From Bacteroidales bacterium (lineage in GTDB: Bacteria > Bacteroidota > Bacteroidia > Bacteroidales > UBA12170), in assembly GCA_021158405.1 (NCBI GenBank), contig JAGGUP010000059.1, forward strand, positions 1 through 55,352: a DNA stretch of 55,352 bases, given 5' to 3'. Below are positions 45,511 through 53,740 of the stretch, in pieces. How positions within the stretch are numbered: position 1 is the stretch's first letter; every line of letters begins with the position of its first letter. Both the position numbers and the translations under genes were made by a program. Under the pieces are notes generated by a model. The model worked only from the letters and a program-made list of their open reading frames with translations. It was not told the DNA's origin and made no database searches.

Positions 45511-47907
45511 TTAGAAAATCCCTTTCGATTTATTCTCAATCTCTTTTTCTATGCTTTTTGATATGTTTCTAACACTTTTCCCTTTTGTAAAGCGATAAGT
45601 AAGTCTGAGCATCAATGTATTTTTAAGCATGCTAATATCGTAGGCTGTAGTGGCACGGTATAATCCCGTATCAATATAACTGCCTTGTTCGTAAGTTACA
45701 CCAAAATCTATTGGTAGCATATAGCTTAGCATCACGGTCATTTTGTTTTTTAAAAGAGGCTGTTGTATAAATATCAACCAGTAATCAGTGTTATAATACT
45801 CATAGCCTTGCGCATTGATTAATTTTTTAATCCCCTTTTGGTAATTAAGTCCGGCAACGGAATGGTATTTCTTATTGATATATAAGAGCTGCGTATTCAT
45901 TACCCAATCGTTTACCGTATTTGATTTTCCGTTGTAGCTAATGCTGCTTTGGAAGAAATCGGCATTGCTTTGCAAGAATAAACTTTGTTTAAACATTGGA
46001 AGGTTGAAATTTATTTTAAAACCCGTACTCTCATAATTACCAACATTATCATAACTGTATTCAAATATGTTTCCATCGAGTGGTGTTATGACTTTATTAA
46101 TCCAGTTATTCGAAAAATGGTAATAGGGTTCTAGAGAAATAAGTCCTTGCATAATACGGAACCTTGCCGATATTTTATGCGTAAGTTCAGGCTCTAAATA
46201 TGGGTTTCCAGTTTCTATTGTGTAGGGGTCGATGGTGTGTGTAAAAGGATTGACTTGCTTCATACTTGGATAATCGCTATCGGCTCTATACTTAAGTTTT
46301 ATATTCAACATTTTATGAGCCGAAATATTGAGGTCGAGATGAGGCTGATAAATAAAATAACTTTGGTCTATTTCTCCAGATTTCGGATGACTATATTCTC
46401 CGGCAAGGCCTAATTTATAACTAACTTTATTTCCCAATTTTGAGGAATAATAAGCATACAACTTATGGCGTGTTTCTGTTTGTGAAAAACTAGTCAACTC
46501 CGTTGTGAAATCTTCTGTAGAGACAAGTCTTGTTTTTGTAGTAAATACATTATCCATTTGACGCCAAGTATTTCCATAACCCACCATTAAAGTAGATTTA
46601 TCATTAATTGTATGATTCAACTCAAGATAGAACTTGGTATAATCTTTTTTATTTTCACCCGTTTCATTAAGTTCAAAACCATTGCTTTGGATTATGCTAT
46701 TGGTATAATCATCGGTATATTTCGAAAATGTAAAATCGGCATTCAAAGTGTTTTTGTTATCAATTTTGAAGATGTAAAAAAGCGAATTAGTAAAATCCTT
46801 AGAATCTATATTGTTTACATTCTGAGAGTTGTAGGTATCTGTAACAACACCATCTTGAGAATGAATAACATTATAATTGTGATCTATGTTTCGTCGGGGT
46901 GATGGAAAGGCTGAAATATTGCTTTCAAAACTAATGGTGTGTTTTGGGTTAATATAATAATCGATACCTGCCGTATAGGTATTCGATAAGAAATCAGTTT
47001 TTAGATTATTCTCATTATTCAAAGGCTTATTCTCAATAAGAAAACCATTAGTGTATTCTTGTTTCGATTCTCCAATAACATCTAAACCCGTGTAGCTATT
47101 ACTGGCTTTTGCATAAATATTTAATTTGTCGTAGGTATAATTATAAGTAAGAGAAAAGTTATTCGTGGGAAAATAGTTATTCTCTTTGGTATCTGTATTG
47201 ATCATTGTCATATTCTCAGCATAGATCTCGGTTCCTTTATAATCACTTTTCAAAAGGATATTTATAATTGCAGAATATCCTTCAAGCGCATATCGTCCGC
47301 TCGGATTTCTAAGTATCTCTACTTCTTTTATTCTTTCGGGCGAAAGATTCCGAATGTACTCCTGGTTTTTTTCAAGTCCATTCACTAATAGTACAATATG
47401 ATCATCACCATCAACTTTGATTGAGTTATTGTATCTATCAAAAGAAAGTCCGTTTATCCTTTCCAATACATCCGAAGTATTAGCTGTGCTGGCACGTATT
47501 TTCGTTGTGATAAATACCACTTCTTTATCGATGCTTGCTTCGTAGAGGGAGCCTTTTACTTCTATTTCTGATAAATCGTTCTGATTGCCATTCAGTTTAA
47601 TGTTTCCTAGAAATTGATCTTTTCCACTTACGTTTAAAGTAAGGGTATCGTTTTGATAACCGATATAGCTGCTCACTAAATTATAAGAGCCTCTCTGAAG
47701 CGGAATTATAAAGTAGCCTTTGTCATTGCTCACTCCACCGGTAATTAAACTATCTTGTAAGTTATACACGCTTAGACTGCAATATATAAGGGCTTCTCTG
47801 GTTTCTCCATCCTTTATCTGACCTGATATTTTTGCTTGAGCATAAGCTTCTGTAAATAAACTGGTAAAGAAAATAAGGAGTAGGGTAATAAGGTAATACT
47901 TTTTCAT
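45511..47907 (-). CDS. TonB-dependent-receptor-like outer-membrane beta-barrel protein
   Basis: A 798-residue outer-membrane protein with the signal peptide MKKYYLITLLLIFFTSLFTE, then AYA and Q. A carboxypeptidase-regulatory-like beta domain follows (KISGQIKDGETREALIYCSL to FLGNIKLNG). Then comes a plug (VLERINGLSFDRYNNSIKVD, YIRNLSPERIKEVEILRNPS) and a long barrel ending at a C-terminal Phe. It resembles the OMP_b-brl_3 group. No STN signalling domain is present. It lies divergent from an ECF sigma operon, and its upstream region carries a GTAATA-N13-GTCGTCTT motif like that of the sigma gene, so it is probably part of that regulon. Its ligand is unknown. Confidence 0.85.
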   Translation of the reverse strand: MKKYYLITLLLIFFTSLFTEAYAQAKISGQIKDGETREALIYCSLSVYNLQDSLITGGVSNDKGYFIIPLQRGSYNLVSSYIGYQNDTLTLNVSGKDQFLGNIKLNGNQNDLSEIEVKGSLYEASIDKEVVFITTKIRASTANTSDVLERINGLSFDRYNNSIKVDGDDHIVLLVNGLEKNQEYIRNLSPERIKEVEILRNPSGRYALEGYSAIINILLKSDYKGTEIYAENMTMINTDTKENNYFPTNNFSLTYNYTYDKLNIYAKASNSYTGLDVIGESKQEYTNGFLIENKPLNNENNLKTDFLSNTYTAGIDYYINPKHTISFESNISAFPSPRRNIDHNYNVIHSQDGVVTDTYNSQNVNNIDSKDFTNSLFYIFKIDNKNTLNADFTFSKYTDDYTNSIIQSNGFELNETGENKKDYTKFYLELNHTINDKSTLMVGYGNTWRQMDNVFTTKTRLVSTEDFTTELTSFSQTETRHKLYAYYSSKLGNKVSYKLGLAGEYSHPKSGEIDQSYFIYQPHLDLNISAHKMLNIKLKYRADSDYPSMKQVNPFTHTIDPYTIETGNPYLEPELTHKISARFRIMQGLISLEPYYHFSNNWINKVITPLDGNIFEYSYDNVGNYESTGFKINFNLPMFKQSLFLQSNADFFQSSISYNGKSNTVNDWVMNTQLLYINKKYHSVAGLNYQKGIKKLINAQGYEYYNTDYWLIFIQQPLLKNKMTVMLSYMLPIDFGVTYEQGSYIDTGLYRATTAYDISMLKNTLMLRLTYRFTKGKSVRNISKSIEKEIENKSKGIF

Positions 47908-47953
47908 GGTTTTTGTTTTTTGTGTGTAAAATGTTTAAATCTTTCTTTCTGGA

Positions 47954-47980
47954 AAGACGACTTAGACTTAGGAATATTAC
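47954..47980 (-). promoter_or_regulatory. Putative ECF-type promoter of the outer-membrane receptor gene
   Basis: On the minus strand GTAATA (47980-47975), 13 bases, then GTCGTCTT (47961-47954). The same motif with the same spacing points the other way at 48029-48055. GTCGTC resembles the CGTC -10 element known for many ECF sigma factors. The receptor ATG is 46 bases downstream. Confidence 0.6.
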
Positions 47981-48028
47981 TTTTTAGTTTTTTATTTGTT
48001 ATAATAAATATCTAAGTGTGAATAAAAT

Positions 48029-48055
48029 GTAATAAATTTGAAATGAGGTCGTCTT
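48029..48055 (+). promoter_or_regulatory. Putative ECF-type promoter of the sigma operon
   Basis: GTAATA (48029-48034), 13 bases, GTCGTCTT (48048-48055), then the sigma ATG only 9 bases later. The motif mirrors the one in front of the divergent receptor gene. Such a short leader implies a nearly leaderless message. Confidence 0.6.
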
Positions 48056-48064
48056 ACAAATAGA

Positions 48065-48568
48065 ATGGAGCAAAAAGAATTTTATACTATATTCACTTCG
48101 CTTAAAGACAAAGTTTTTAGGTACGCCAGAGCAATCTTGTCGGATGTGGAAGAAGCAGAGGATGTTACGCAGGATATTTTTGAGCGTTTACTCTTAAATA
48201 AGAATAGCGTTTTGGAATTCAATAATGTGGAGTCTTATTTAATTCGTTCGACAAAGAATTTGTGTCTCGACCGTGTAAAACATCGGAATGTGGTATTGAA
48301 AAATTCAGAAAATATCAAGAACCTAAGCAATCATGTTGTTGAACCTGAGCTTGAGCAAAAAGAAATGGCGGGTATGATTAGGACAATAATTGATAGATTA
48401 CCCAAAAAGCAAAAAATGATTATTCATTTGCGAGATGTAGAAAGTTATAATTTTGATGAAATTTTTGATGCAACAGGGATAGATCCAAACGCTATACGTG
48501 TTAATTTATCCCGAGCAAGAAAGACAGTTAAAGAGGAGCTTATAAAAACCATGAATTATGGATTATAG
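48065..48568 (+). CDS. ECF-family RNA polymerase sigma factor
   Basis: A 167-residue group 4 sigma-70 protein. Region 2 is KVFRYARAILSDVEEAEDVT, then QDIFERLL, which binds the -10 element and core polymerase. Region 4 is LPKKQKMIIHLRDVESYNFD, then GIDPNAIRVNLSRARKTVKE, with the helix-turn-helix for -35 recognition. There are no regions 1 or 3, as expected for ECF factors. The next gene starts inside its 3' end (11-base overlap), showing coupling. It probably drives its own operon and the divergent receptor gene through the shared upstream motif. Its activating signal is unknown. Confidence 0.93.
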   Translation: MEQKEFYTIFTSLKDKVFRYARAILSDVEEAEDVTQDIFERLLLNKNSVLEFNNVESYLIRSTKNLCLDRVKHRNVVLKNSENIKNLSNHVVEPELEQKEMAGMIRTIIDRLPKKQKMIIHLRDVESYNFDEIFDATGIDPNAIRVNLSRARKTVKEELIKTMNYGL

Positions 48569-49019
48569 AGAAATAAAAACACTGCTTGAAAAATACCTTG
48601 AAGGTGAGAGCAGTATCCAGGAAGAGGATGAGTTGAAGCGGTTTTTTAATGAAAACGAAAATATTCCAGAGGAACTTTTATTTGCAAAGAAGCTATTTCG
48701 ATTTTTTGGAGATGAAAAAACAATAGAATATACCAAGGAATTTGAGCATAAGAAGCCTAGGAGGAAAATCAATCTTTACACGTTATCCGGCATTGCTGCA
48801 ACTCTTCTATTGGCATTATTTTTTGTATTCTCGAATTATAAAACAAAAGAAAAAATTATCTATGCCTATATAAATGGGGAAGCCATAACAGACATAAACA
48901 TTGCAAAAGAACAAACGAAGCAGATATTATATGCTACTTCACAAAAAATAAGTACCGGTATCGAAAGTTTGAATCGCGTTGGCGATTTAATGAACCCAGA
49001 GTTATTAATTAAAAAATAA
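48558..49019 (+). CDS. Probable anti-sigma factor, single membrane helix
   Basis: A 153-residue protein overlapping the sigma gene. The N-terminal 70 residues are acidic and helical (MDYREIKTLLEKYLEGESSI) and would lie in the cytoplasm to bind sigma. One membrane helix follows at about residues 73-91 (LYTLSGIAATLLLALFFVF), then a periplasmic tail of about 60 residues (YAYINGEAITDINIAKEQTK). There is no zinc-binding HxxxCxxC anti-sigma motif and no FecR domain. Its position right after an ECF sigma gene and its topology support the assignment; sequence similarity alone would not. A DUF4252 gene starts 5 bases after the stop. Confidence 0.7.
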   Translation: MDYREIKTLLEKYLEGESSIQEEDELKRFFNENENIPEELLFAKKLFRFFGDEKTIEYTKEFEHKKPRRKINLYTLSGIAATLLLALFFVFSNYKTKEKIIYAYINGEAITDINIAKEQTKQILYATSQKISTGIESLNRVGDLMNPELLIKK

Positions 49020-49024
49020 ATAAG

Positions 49025-49555
49025 ATGAAAAATTTAATAATATTAGCAATTATGATGCTGCCGTTTTTAACAATGGCACAAGAGAGTCCCGCAGTAAAGC
49101 ACTTTGACAAGTACTCGGGCCAAAAAGGATATACCTCAGTTTATATCACCAAGTACACTTTCGATTTTTTTACTGAAGTAACCAGCAAGGAAGAAGGGGA
49201 AGCTTTTAAAGAAAATATTGCAGGTATAAATACGATAAAGGTTTTAATGAACGATGCTCCATCGAAGGTATTAACCGAAAATCTATTTTATAAAGAGTTG
49301 CTACCAACAATTCTTAAATCTACCTATGACGAAATCTTGCTGGTTAAGGAAGACGGGCAGATATATCGTTTTTTTGTCAAGAAGGAAAATAGCAAGATTA
49401 CCGAGTTTATAATTGTTGTTTATGGGCCAGAAGAGAATATTTTAGTAATTATTGAAGGAGATATCGATCTCAAGAAACTTTCTAAGCTCTCTGGAACTAT
49501 GAAAATTGAAGGCTTTGATCGCCTAGAAGATATTGATAAAAAAAGCCAGAACTAA
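49025..49555 (+). CDS. Exported DUF4252 protein, first copy
   Basis: A 176-residue protein with the signal peptide MKNLIILAIMMLPFLTMA, then QE. The mature part (KHFDKYSGQKGYTSVYITKY then TFDFF, ending LKKLSKLSGTMKIEGFDRLE) matches the pattern of DUF4252, a Bacteroidota family of unknown function. There is no lipobox Cys, so it is likely soluble in the periplasm or associated with the outer membrane. Members are often encoded with ECF sigma genes, as here. It overlaps the next DUF4252 gene as TAATG. It may sense or buffer the signal for the sigma system; that is inference. Confidence 0.82.
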   Translation: MKNLIILAIMMLPFLTMAQESPAVKHFDKYSGQKGYTSVYITKYTFDFFTEVTSKEEGEAFKENIAGINTIKVLMNDAPSKVLTENLFYKELLPTILKSTYDEILLVKEDGQIYRFFVKKENSKITEFIIVVYGPEENILVIIEGDIDLKKLSKLSGTMKIEGFDRLEDIDKKSQN

Positions 49556-50052
49556 TGAAAGCCAAGATCGCTATACTATTTTTGCTGTTTACCTTTGGTT
49601 CTAATGTTGTATTTGGCCGATCTGGATCTGAAGGATACCTGGAATTTTACAAGGCTCACAAAAGCCACGAAGATGTCATAAATCTGGATATTCCTACCTT
49701 CTTTGCGCGCTTTTTTCTTCATGGAGAGGATAGAAAGGAGCTGAGAAGTCTGCTAAGAAAGATCGATGATTTTAAGATTTTTGTTGCCGATAGATTAGCC
49801 TATGAACTATTGCCTATTCTAAATGAGTCGCTTAAAAAAGCTTCCTATATTGATGCAATGATTGTTAAAGACGAAGGGGAAATAATCACCTTTAAAACAA
49901 AAGGAAACGATACCCTAATAACAGAAATTATTCTGGTTGTAGATCAGGTTGACTCCTTTGTAGTAGTTAGTGTTATGGGTAAGTTTACGCCAGAGGATAT
50001 GAGGAAATATGTCCGAGCTATCGACACACAGAAGATGTATTCCGGAGATTAA
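49555..50052 (+). CDS. Exported DUF4252-like protein, second copy
   Basis: A 165-residue protein with the signal peptide MKAKIAILFLLFTFGSNVVF, then G. It resembles the preceding protein in length and plan: DIPTFFARFFLHGEDRKELR, LLPILNESLKKASYIDAMIV, KDEGEIITFKTKGNDTLITE, then SFVVVSVMGKFTPEDMRKYV. The two are diverged paralogues, probably an old tandem duplication within the operon. It is the last gene of the sigma operon and is followed by the terminator at 50083. Confidence 0.78.
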   Translation: MKAKIAILFLLFTFGSNVVFGRSGSEGYLEFYKAHKSHEDVINLDIPTFFARFFLHGEDRKELRSLLRKIDDFKIFVADRLAYELLPILNESLKKASYIDAMIVKDEGEIITFKTKGNDTLITEIILVVDQVDSFVVVSVMGKFTPEDMRKYVRAIDTQKMYSGD

Positions 50053-50082: not shown

Positions 50083-50112
50083 AGCTCGTCAATTTTTTGA
50101 CGGGCTTTTTTT
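50083..50112 (+). terminator. Terminator of the sigma operon
   Basis: AGCTCGTCAA (50083-50092) pairs with TTGACGGGCT (50097-50106) around a T loop, and a T run follows. Nearly identical to the rplT terminator at 45291. Confidence 0.85.
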
Positions 50113-50215: not shown

Positions 50216-50337
50216 CCGTTTATTTCTAGATAAAGTTTTATTATATTTGTAAGGAATATAAGAGATTGCCTTATATTTACTACCGAGAGAGACGCATTAT
50301 TTGTGCCGAATTATTTTGAGGTGTTATACCATTGAAA

Positions 50338-50917
50338 ATGGATAAATATCAAAATAAATATCGTATAAAATCGGTGCGATTGCCGAATTATGATTATGCC
50401 CGTGCGGGTTTGTATTTTATTACCATTTGTACCAAAAATCGCGAACATTATTTTGGCGAAATTATTGATAATGAAATGCAATTATCAAATATTGGCGTTT
50501 TAGCCGATGCGTTTTGGTATGAAATTAAACAACATTCAAAAAATATTGATTTGCATCAATTTGTGATAATGCCAAATCATATTTAAGGAATTTTGAAAAT
50601 TGTGGATGATGGTGATGGTGGCGTTCGTGGAGACGATGCATGCATCGTCTCCTACCGCGAAGATCCCCACGAATTCAAAATCCGTTATTCCAAAAAATCA
50701 ACAAATGGCAGCAATATCACCAAAATCTGGTTCCGTATCACGTATTATTGGTTCGTATAAATCGGCAATAACGAAATATGTTCATAGTTTAGGATATGAT
50801 TTTGAGTGGCAATCGCGTTTTTACGATCATATACTCAGGGATGAAAATGAATATTTTCGGATTTCAAATTATATCAAGAATAATCCTAAAAAATGGGTTG
50901 AGGATAAATTTCATTAA
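50338..50917 (+). pseudogene. Broken REP-associated tyrosine (RAYT/IS200-like) transposase
   Basis: The first part (MDKYQNKYRIKSVRLPNYDY, then FYFITIC-type strand YFITICTKNREHYFG) ends at FVIMPNHI, where a TAA at 50584-50586 replaces the second His of the HUH motif. After it the frame shifts by one: the rest of the family sequence (SVSRIIGSYKSAITKYVHSL, then FYDHILRDENEYFRISNYIK, NNPKKWVEDKF) is read in another frame up to the TAA at 50917. A stop plus a frameshift make it inactive. Intact relatives are single-copy Y1 transposases linked to REP palindromes. The joint between the halves contains a perfect 24-bp palindrome. Confidence 0.88.
50629..50652. repeat. 24-bp perfect palindrome inside the RAYT remnant
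   Basis: GGAGACGATGCA (50629-50640) followed directly by its reverse complement. It lies in the linker between the HUH and Tyr parts of the transposase, next to the frameshift, and may have been inserted there. Confidence 0.75.
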
Positions 50918-52069: not shown

Positions 52070-53677
52070 GTGTATCGCATAAAGTCACAAATAGATATAA
52101 AATCAGAAAGTTTTCAAGCAAACAAAAAGGCATATCAAAGTCTGTTGGAAACATTTCGCGAAAGAACAGCTTCTGTAATTGAAAGAGGAAGTGATAGAGC
52201 AGTGCTAAAACATAAGGAACGTGGTAAGCTTTTGGCTCGGGAAAGAATTGATTTATTGGTTGATATAAACACTCCATTTATGGAGTTGTCGACTCTTGGA
52301 GCGTTTGATAAGTACGAAAATAAGTTTCCATCAGCCGGTATTATTACAGGAATAGGAGTCGTTCAAGGGAAAGAAACAATAATCATTGCCAATGATGCCA
52401 CCGTAAAAGGGGGAACTTATATTAAGGAAACCATTCGCAAACATGTTAGGGCGCAAGAAATTGCTATGGACAATCATTTACCTTGCGTTTATATGGTAGA
52501 TTCTGGAGGTGCTTTTCTACCTGACCAAGCAAATGTTTTTCCTGATCGTTTTGATTTTGGTCGATTTTTTTACAATCAGGCTAGGATGTCTGCCGTTGGA
52601 ATTCCTCAAATTTCCATCGTGATGGGAAGTTGTACTGCTGGCGGAGCTTATGTTCCTGCTATGAGTGATGAAACAATTATTGTAAAAGAACAAGGCACTA
52701 TTTTTATTGGAGGACCTCCTTTGGTAAAAGCTGCAACGGGAGAGGAAGTTACAGCCGAAGAACTTGGAGGCGCTGATGTGCATACGAGTATTTCTGGTGT
52801 TGCTGATCATTTTGCAGAAGATGATCGGCATGCGATTTCCATTTGTCGCAATATTTTTGAAACACTGGAAAATAAAGAAAAGCAAAAGATTGATATCGTT
52901 CCTATTGAGGAGCCTTATTACGATCCAAAAGAATTATATGGAATTGCGCAGGTTGATTTAAAAAAAGCGGTGGATGCAAGAGAAATCATTGCCCGCATTG
53001 TTGATGGTAGTCGTTTTCAGGAATTTAAAGCACGTTATGCACCTACAATAATTACTGGCTTTGCACATATTATGGGATTTCCTGTCGGGATTCTGGCCAA
53101 TAATGGAGTTTTATTCTCTGAAACGGCACTGAAAGGAGCTCATTTTATAGAGCTCTGTACAAGCAGAAATATCCCGATTATTTTCTTGCAAAATATTACG
53201 GGTTTTATTGTTGGAAAAGAATATGAACATAAAGGAATAGCACGCGATGGAGCTAAATTAGTACACGCTGTGGCTAATGCGAATGTTCCTAAATTTACAG
53301 TAGTTATTGGTGGCTCTTTTGGAGCCGGCAATTATGCTATGGCTGGTCGTGCTTACGATCCTCGCTTATTGTTTATGTGGCCTAACGCAAAAATTTCGGT
53401 CATGGGTGGTGAACAAGCTTCCGATGTTTTGATTCAAGTGAAAAAAGACCAACTTCAAGCGCGTGGAGAAAAAATGCCGCAAGAAGATATTGATAAGCTT
53501 AAGAAATCCATTTTGGAAAAATACGAAACAGAAGGTTCCGCCTATTACAGCACAGCTCGTATGTGGGATGATGGAATAATTGATCCCGTAGATACACGGA
53601 AAGTATTGGCGATGGGAATCGCAATGTCTTTAAGCAAGAAATGGGACGAAACAAAATACGGTATTTTTAGGATGTAA
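52070..53677 (+). CDS. mccB: Methylcrotonyl-CoA carboxylase, beta (carboxyltransferase) subunit
   Basis: Transfers carboxyl from biotin to an acyl-CoA; by sequence the acyl-CoA is most likely 3-methylcrotonyl-CoA of leucine breakdown. The protein has 535 residues. MCC-type signatures are DSGGAFLPDQANVFPDR and SCTAGGAYVPAMSDE, with GTIFIGGPPLVKAATGEEVT and the C-terminal GSFGAGNYAMAGRAYDPRLL. Propionyl-CoA carboxylases differ in the first of these. The best start is a GTG at 52070 (MYRIKSQIDIKSESFQ), since no ATG occurs before conserved sequence. The methylglutaconyl-CoA hydratase gene follows. The biotin-carrying alpha subunit is not in the window. Confidence 0.9.
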   Translation: MYRIKSQIDIKSESFQANKKAYQSLLETFRERTASVIERGSDRAVLKHKERGKLLARERIDLLVDINTPFMELSTLGAFDKYENKFPSAGIITGIGVVQGKETIIIANDATVKGGTYIKETIRKHVRAQEIAMDNHLPCVYMVDSGGAFLPDQANVFPDRFDFGRFFYNQARMSAVGIPQISIVMGSCTAGGAYVPAMSDETIIVKEQGTIFIGGPPLVKAATGEEVTAEELGGADVHTSISGVADHFAEDDRHAISICRNIFETLENKEKQKIDIVPIEEPYYDPKELYGIAQVDLKKAVDAREIIARIVDGSRFQEFKARYAPTIITGFAHIMGFPVGILANNGVLFSETALKGAHFIELCTSRNIPIIFLQNITGFIVGKEYEHKGIARDGAKLVHAVANANVPKFTVVIGGSFGAGNYAMAGRAYDPRLLFMWPNAKISVMGGEQASDVLIQVKKDQLQARGEKMPQEDIDKLKKSILEKYETEGSAYYSTARMWDDGIIDPVDTRKVLAMGIAMSLSKKWDETKYGIFRM

Positions 53678-53684
53678 TTCTTTG

Positions 53685-53740
53685 TGTCTTGGCGTCTTAG
53701 CGTAATGTTTTTTCTCGCAAAGCCGCAGAGTCGCAAAGTT
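53685..53740. repeat. Diverged copy of the TTAGCG/CGCAAAG intergenic inverted repeat
   Basis: TTGTGTCTTGGCGTCTTAGCG, then a T-rich centre, then GCAAAGCCGCAGAGTCGCAAAG: two arms that are roughly complementary. It belongs to the same general type as the repeats around 54580-55352 but has a different arm sequence. Confidence 0.5.

Follow-up and report, generated by a model that had tools for sequence, protein, structure and literature searches.

A mirror-image pair of predicted ECF promoters between a sigma-factor operon and a divergent outer-membrane receptor gene in a Bacteroidales genome

The stretch of DNA analysed here (hereafter the window) comprises 55,352 nucleotides of contig JAGGUP010000059.1 from a Bacteroidales bacterium (genome G000). 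It carries a gene for an ECF sigma factor followed by three genes on the same strand, and 157 bp separate the sigma gene from a divergent gene for an outer-membrane receptor (Table 1). Two predicted promoters lie between the divergent genes, and no Rfam family reaches its gathering score in positions 47700–48300.

Table 1. Genes and predicted promoters of the divergent sigma–receptor locus (window coordinates)
Feature	Position	Strand	Details
Outer-membrane beta-barrel, TonB-dependent-receptor-like protein, 798 aa	45511..47907	-	PF14905, PF13715
Outer-membrane-protein promoter (predicted)	47954..47980	-	-35 AGTAAT, N16, CGTC; motif end to ATG 46 nt
Sigma-operon promoter (predicted)	48029..48055	+	-35 TGTAAT (48028-48033), N16, CGTC (48050-48053); CGTC to ATG 11 nt
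ECF sigma factor, GFO_1088/PG0214 family, 167 aa	48065..48568	+	NCBIfam NF058625; Pfam Sigma70_r2, r4_2
Putative anti-sigma factor, 153 aa	48558..49019	+	overlaps sigma stop codon; one probable membrane helix between an N-terminal helical bundle and a short outer part
DUF4252 protein, probably secreted, 176 aa	49025..49555	+	PF14060 2.6e-18; signal-like N-terminus (by eye)
Second DUF4252 protein, probably secreted, 165 aa	49555..50052	+	PF14060 7e-14; signal-like N-terminus (by eye)

The sigma protein passes the cut-off of NCBIfam family NF058625 (175.2 bits over residues 1–166; cut-off 130), and no relatives were found in viral contigs. The protein encoded next, the putative anti-sigma factor, matches no Pfam family at cut-off. 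Its structural model contains helices only: residues 1–50 form an N-terminal helical bundle (mean pLDDT 93–97) and helix 73–95 is a probable membrane span. With regard to a class I anti-sigma domain, the anti-sigma factors RsiW and MucA occupy ranks 1–3 of its Foldseek search with E values that are not significant (2.8–3.7), and in VIA-align they score Z 2.6–2.8 (rmsd 3.7–9.2 over 50–63 residues), tied with unrelated rows. Fold searches with the anti-sigma and DUF4252 models gave no match at E ≤ 0.001. The model of the first DUF4252 protein (49025–49555, pLDDT 84) matches EagT6, DcrB and PsbP-type folds weakly (best E 2.7e-3), and its sequence has no match among PDB sequences at E ≤ 0.1. Both DUF4252 neighbours pass the Pfam DUF4252 cut-off and score 81.7 and 26.4 bits against NF058626 (GFO_1090 family), under its cut-off of 150; an NF058626 neighbour is a feature of the operon and not of the sigma factor itself.

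The order sigma factor, single-span protein, DUF4252 protein recurs at 25 of 30 loci, the window included, as judged by reading translations by eye without a family scan. The exceptions are L123, L124, L129 and L139, where a larger, different protein follows the sigma factor, and L138, where none is listed. Among 32 named loci, the frames listed next include nothing resembling a DUF4252 protein in several cases (e.g. L055, L058–L060 and L065–L067). After the second DUF4252 gene, an inverted repeat with a T run at about 50085–50112 resembles an intrinsic terminator by eye. Further downstream, two neighbouring open frames at 50332–50917 appear to be pieces of one gene interrupted near 50590, which we take to resemble a REP-associated transposase-type gene.

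The receptor contains an OMP_b-brl_3 domain (PF14905, 7.3e-38) and an N-terminal CarbopepD_reg_2 domain (PF13715, 4.8e-11), with a Plug match under cut-off. It has no match among PDB sequences at E ≤ 0.01, and its matches in plasmid records all fall below 60% identity (20.7–23.6% among the five matches listed).

As a preliminary description of this DNA had proposed, the composite GTAATA-N13-GTCGTCTT occurs once on each strand of the intergenic region with identical spacing, each copy facing its own gene. Read as promoters, the two sites have the layout of a -35 element, N16 and CGTC, which is the usual geometry of ECF promoters such as the Bacillus sigma-W promoter; their -35 elements differ in that the first T on the sigma side is an A on the receptor side. 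Relaxing the spacer (GTAATA-N11-15-GTCGTCTT) yields two matches in the whole 2.94 Mb genome, namely the pair, and the exact composite has a mean of 0.00 occurrences in 100 shuffles of the window. When the 157-bp region is dinucleotide-shuffled 5000 times, non-overlapping inverted and identical 6-mer/N13/8-mer composites arise in 4 of the shuffles, and in 15 once the spacer may be anything from 11 to 18; these exact shuffles supersede a cruder test with a first-order chain, in which self-overlapping matches were counted (177 and 458 of 4000). The suggestion that so exact a match of parts and distance is very unlikely by chance thus agrees with the shuffles, but the identity itself is partly accidental, because the two copies in the nearest orthologous region (genome G241, below) differ in both letters and spacer.

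A weight matrix provides a stronger test of the pair, independent of the shuffles. It was built from 23 sites upstream of sigma relatives in the order, excluding the window genome and G241; these training sites were chosen by the pattern GTAA[CT]..CGTC, and two of them (L120 and L004) lie off the usual promoter distance. Across 110,638 window positions, the sigma-side site ranks first (21.2 bits) and the receptor-side site second (13.9 bits), with the third-best position at 11.6.

The sigma-side site is widely kept. A search of 393 genomes from the order recovered a sigma match at E ≤ 1e-25 in 82, and loci were taken from the best 30 of these 82, giving 29 besides the window's own. Of the 29 relatives, 23 carry the motif GTAA[CT]-N13-17-CGTC within 250 nt upstream of the sigma gene and six do not; the backwards pattern is found in 0/29, and a first-order shuffle gives an expectation of 0.09. 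The core motif is also present at 18 of 28 further loci (27 plus a paralogue from the window's own genome, on contig C81) and at 44 of 79 named loci, one of the 80 having been left out owing to an unusable start; the backwards control is 0 in both sets. All ten named loci titled Paenibacillus, Cohnella, Ruminococcus, Lachnospiraceae or Nocardia lack it (0/10). The conserved unit is about TGTAAY-N16-CGTCWT and not the exact string of the window. The -10-like part had been likened at the outset to the CGTC element of ECF promoters; the core with CGTC recurs in 23 of the 29 relatives, and spacing and letters fit a -35/-10 pair. A -35/-10 pair with ECF spacing ahead of the sigma gene, retained in relatives, is what autoregulation predicts, and these 23 loci display it.

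The mirrored arrangement is much rarer. An additional motif on the other strand was found at 1/29, 0/28 and 0/79 sigma loci in the three sets, the single case being G241. This genome holds the nearest orthologue of the system (sigma 75% identity; receptor 62% over the available stretch) with the divergent order kept, and its sites read GTAACA-N13-GTCGTCAT and GTAATA-N14-GTCGTCTT. In an alignment of the window with G241, the two longest unbroken noncoding blocks, GTCGTCTTTC and ATGAGGTCGTC, fall on the -10 elements. The expectation that the motif be kept in orthologous divergent regions therefore holds in G241, the sole other divergent region found with this receptor. In G212, the orthologues of the receptor (48%) and the sigma factor (49%) lie on different contigs, and the motif precedes both.

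Receptor orthologues (E ≤ 1e-60, window excluded) carry the motif upstream in 12 of 26 cases, compared with 1 of 17 distant paralogues; three of 29 loci were omitted from this count as their start or upstream part is missing or uncertain. The other 14 of the 26 have no motif within 250 nt upstream, and some of these (e.g. L177 and L178, about 35 nt behind another frame) may belong to operons. Three genomes were found with both a close sigma factor (E ≤ 1e-40) and a receptor orthologue (E ≤ 1e-60), i.e. the window's own, G241 and G212, and the motif stands at both genes in all three. In other genomes one often occurs without the other: G099 and G147 carry a close sigma factor but yield no receptor at the E ≤ 1e-60 threshold, and among the 29 receptor-bearing genomes, 26 lack a sigma match at E ≤ 1e-25. 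At the level of sequence, the sites are thus conserved at both genes, and also at a receptor gene unlinked to the sigma gene.

The sigma–receptor cassette as a whole (window 45511–50052) is present in this genome and in G241, which belongs to a different family. Ten other members of the genus have no sigma match above 40% identity among the matches listed, and four other members searched for the receptor (G004, G008, G009 and G010) have none at E ≤ 1e-60. Both lateral transfer and loss are possible explanations of this distribution.

The mirror symmetry about the intergenic region could also suggest a conventional transcription factor site, with the two copies acting jointly on the divergent genes. 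We consider this very improbable: sigma relatives carry single copies, with an other-strand copy in 1 of 29; a single copy lies upstream of the unlinked G212 receptor; and the spacing and letters fit a -35/-10 pair whose distance to the gene is near-fixed on the sigma side.

In our preferred reading, a single ECF sigma factor uses both sites of the pair as promoters, one for its own operon and one for the divergent receptor gene, which we regard as probable from the sequence comparisons. The matrix ranks, the 23 of 29 sigma relatives, the G241 pair, the unlinked G212 receptor and the contrast of 12/26 with 1/17 together point to two ECF promoters, one of them autoregulatory. On the same evidence, the earlier proposal that ECF-type promoters link the sigma factor and the receptor as one regulon emerges as the best-supported reading. 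In this scheme, (i) the membrane anti-sigma factor (48558–49019) would retain the sigma factor until an envelope signal releases it; (ii) the sigma factor with RNA polymerase would read TGTAAT-N16-CGTC upstream of its own operon, giving positive autoregulation that would also raise the anti-sigma and DUF4252 proteins; and (iii) it would read AGTAAT-N16-CGTC upstream of the divergent outer-membrane receptor gene.

Which sigma factor reads these sites is complicated by the paralogue on C81 (L033, C81:12382–12948). It shares 35% identity with the window sigma factor and has the promoter TGTAAT-N16-CGTCTTA, nearly the same as that of the window sigma gene. This site (TGTAATG..CTCGTCTTA) has similar counterparts in three congeneric genomes (G003, G004 and G005), and the gene divergent from the paralogue presumably encodes an HlyD-like adaptor. 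Since the core motif also lies upstream of this paralogue and of many other ECF genes, it does not identify the window sigma factor alone. Both sites might then be ECF promoters whose main reader is the C81 paralogue, or several overlapping ECF sigma factors, with no private regulon. The shared promoter layout is consistent with this, as are the prevalence of the core motif among ECF genes of the phylum (those 44 named loci) and its retention at the receptor genes of genomes (G318 and G295, for example) for which no sigma match at E ≤ 1e-25 is reported. Because several genomes have the receptor-side motif and no such sigma match, other ECF sigma factors presumably read it there. Partly overlapping ECF regulons are also suggested for Flavobacterium in the accessible part of PMC9723704. 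The divergent linkage and the GTCGTC common to both promoters in G000 and G241 argue against the paralogue, as does, weakly, the lack of a receptor at E ≤ 1e-60 in the four genus members named above, one of which, G004, carries a sigma factor and promoter like those of C81. We regard this alternative as possible but rather doubtful. Under the preferred reading, we infer from gene linkage that the receptor site is assigned to the window sigma factor rather than to the C81 paralogue.

The motif had also been put forward as a means to scan for other members. Genome-wide pattern scans with it established no further member that could be separated from background. TGTAAN15-17CGTCTTA has three matches (control 3), i.e. 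the sigma-side site, the promoter of the C81 paralogue and 53673–53699 (+). The last of these, TGTAAT..GGCGTCTTA, overlaps the end of one frame, lies 70 nt ahead of the next (53770) and does not rank among the eight top-scoring positions of the matrix. GTAAN15-16GTCGTC has four matches in G000 (control 12) and five in G241 (control 34), and GTAAYN15-16CGTCTT has six in the window's genome (control 9). GTAAYN14-16TCGTCWT also has six there, and its backwards control 13; the three matches that are neither the pair nor the paralogue promoter all fall inside open reading frames. An order-wide scan for GTCGTCWT 3–20 nt ahead of an ATG has matches in 82 of 393 genomes and is uninformative because the control columns also have matches in many genomes.

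One candidate third member, L165 (C163:12690–12714 of the same genome, minus strand), has the site GTAAC-N14-GTCGTC ending 42 nt ahead of the ATG of a probably secreted protein of unassigned family. Among 19 other genomes, this protein is found in G004 and G005 only; its site is intact in the latter and degenerate in the former. Both genomes also have the C81-like sigma promoter, and we set L165 aside as more likely a target of another ECF sigma factor.

The least expected part of the system is the short leader predicted for the sigma message. The CGTC element ends 11 nt ahead of the ATG at 48065, which the sequence leaves as the only plausible start codon: no start codon separates it from an in-frame TGA seven codons upstream, and the next ATG, GTG or TTG is at codon 25. 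The gap from CGTC to ATG is 9–13 nt in 21 of the 23 motif-bearing relatives from the best 30 of 82 genomes (L116–L142), whose start codons were set by alignment to the sigma N-terminus, independently of the motif. Transcription from ECF promoters generally starts 6–8 nt past CGTC. Such a start would imply leaders of about 2–8 nt in these relatives and 4–6 nt in the window, and hence a near-leaderless sigma mRNA. Among named loci with the motif, the gap is 11–18 nt in 25 of 44. It is 30–56 nt at eight motif loci of the window's genus (L007, L008, L012, L013, L017, L021, L022 and L033, the C81 paralogue) and 20–123 nt at six ECF21-looking loci, which shows that the short spacing does not hold throughout. 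As background, leaders this short are uncommon in the phylum: about 3.7% of 5' UTRs in Bacteroides thetaiotaomicron are shorter than 10 nt and 5.5% are leaderless in Flavobacterium psychrophilum (excerpts of PMC7366714 and PMC9723704, respectively).

A more usual leader, estimated at about 18 nt, would result if the housekeeping sigma factor mainly transcribed the sigma gene from TAAATTTG at 48033–48040, the ECF-like site being secondary. This element is a single TAnnTTTG match, correctly oriented and near the gene. Yet it sits within the ECF spacer and is missing from the matching stretch in the three closest relatives (L116, L117 and L118), and positions 48000–48032 contain no TTTG; we judge such a promoter unlikely. 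With the ECF site as the promoter of the sigma operon, it is tempting to propose that self-induced mRNAs are essentially leaderless across an entire group of ECF sigma factors in Bacteroidota, as a selected translational gate on positive feedback; we offer this idea tentatively. The near-fixed and very short gap to the sigma start is in any case a testable prediction on the translation of such feedback loops.

Several known systems resemble parts of this arrangement. Cell-surface signalling of the FecI/FecR/FecA type places the genes of an ECF sigma factor, an anti-sigma factor and an outer-membrane receptor side by side, as in the window; no Pfam match up to E = 1 was found for the FecR family in the putative anti-sigma factor or for an STN domain in the receptor. 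In ECF21, Dma and EcfO–Reo systems, Bacteroidota ECF sigma factors likewise have an adjacent anti-sigma factor, and at eight ECF21-looking loci (L024, L025 and L027–L032; type inferred from a downstream ORF of 333–407 aa) six have a similar GTAAC..CGTC site. Dma and Reo architectures are described with outer-membrane-spanning anti-sigma factors (available parts of PMC13088901, PMC13114119 and PMC9308784). The ECF21/Dma anti-sigma factor has a C-terminal outer-membrane barrel, whereas the model of the 153-aa window protein shows no barrel but a single probable membrane helix. In F. psychrophilum, motif SM6 (the CGT box) is an ECF-like -10 box from mapped start sites, as described in the accessible part of PMC9723704. 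Its likeness to our sites is that of an ECF-like -10 box in the same phylum, and its genes differ from those of the window, comprising type IX secretion components and others.

The portions available of PMC10101095, PMC10434189, PMC12596196, PMC4800418, PMC7366714, PMC9723704, PMC13088901, PMC13114119, PMC9308784 and PMC3616915, a search that did not include the two main ECF references, contain no description of this divergent pair. Searches for TGTAAC with ECF in the Bacteroid literature surfaced only Bradyrhizobium work, and those for divergent ECF/TonB regulons in Bacteroidetes only a review on two-component systems of oral bacteria. Our results suggest TGTAAY-N16-CGTCWT as an ECF promoter element that sequence comparison supports in relatives of the GFO_1088/PG0214 sigma group. 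They would also tie one sigma factor of this group to an outer-membrane receptor.

Among the closest parallels are sigma operons of the GFO_1088/PG0214 family, whose cut-off the window sigma factor passes, such as PG_0214–0218 of Porphyromonas gingivalis, and the similarly ordered PG_0985–0987 of that species; they share with the window the order sigma factor, hypothetical protein, DUF4252. According to the accessible text of PMC10101095, both are up in a mutant of PG_0686 (a diguanylate cyclase), and more so under peroxide; PG0985-87 change 1.4–1.7-fold in the iron stimulon table excerpted from PMC10434189. What distinguishes the window is a receptor gene divergently coupled by its own predicted ECF promoter, a coupling that the available parts of these P. 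gingivalis sources do not mention. Taken with these systems, the locus is very probably a well-supported new example of a known design, in which an autoregulated ECF sigma operon is joined to a divergently coupled target.
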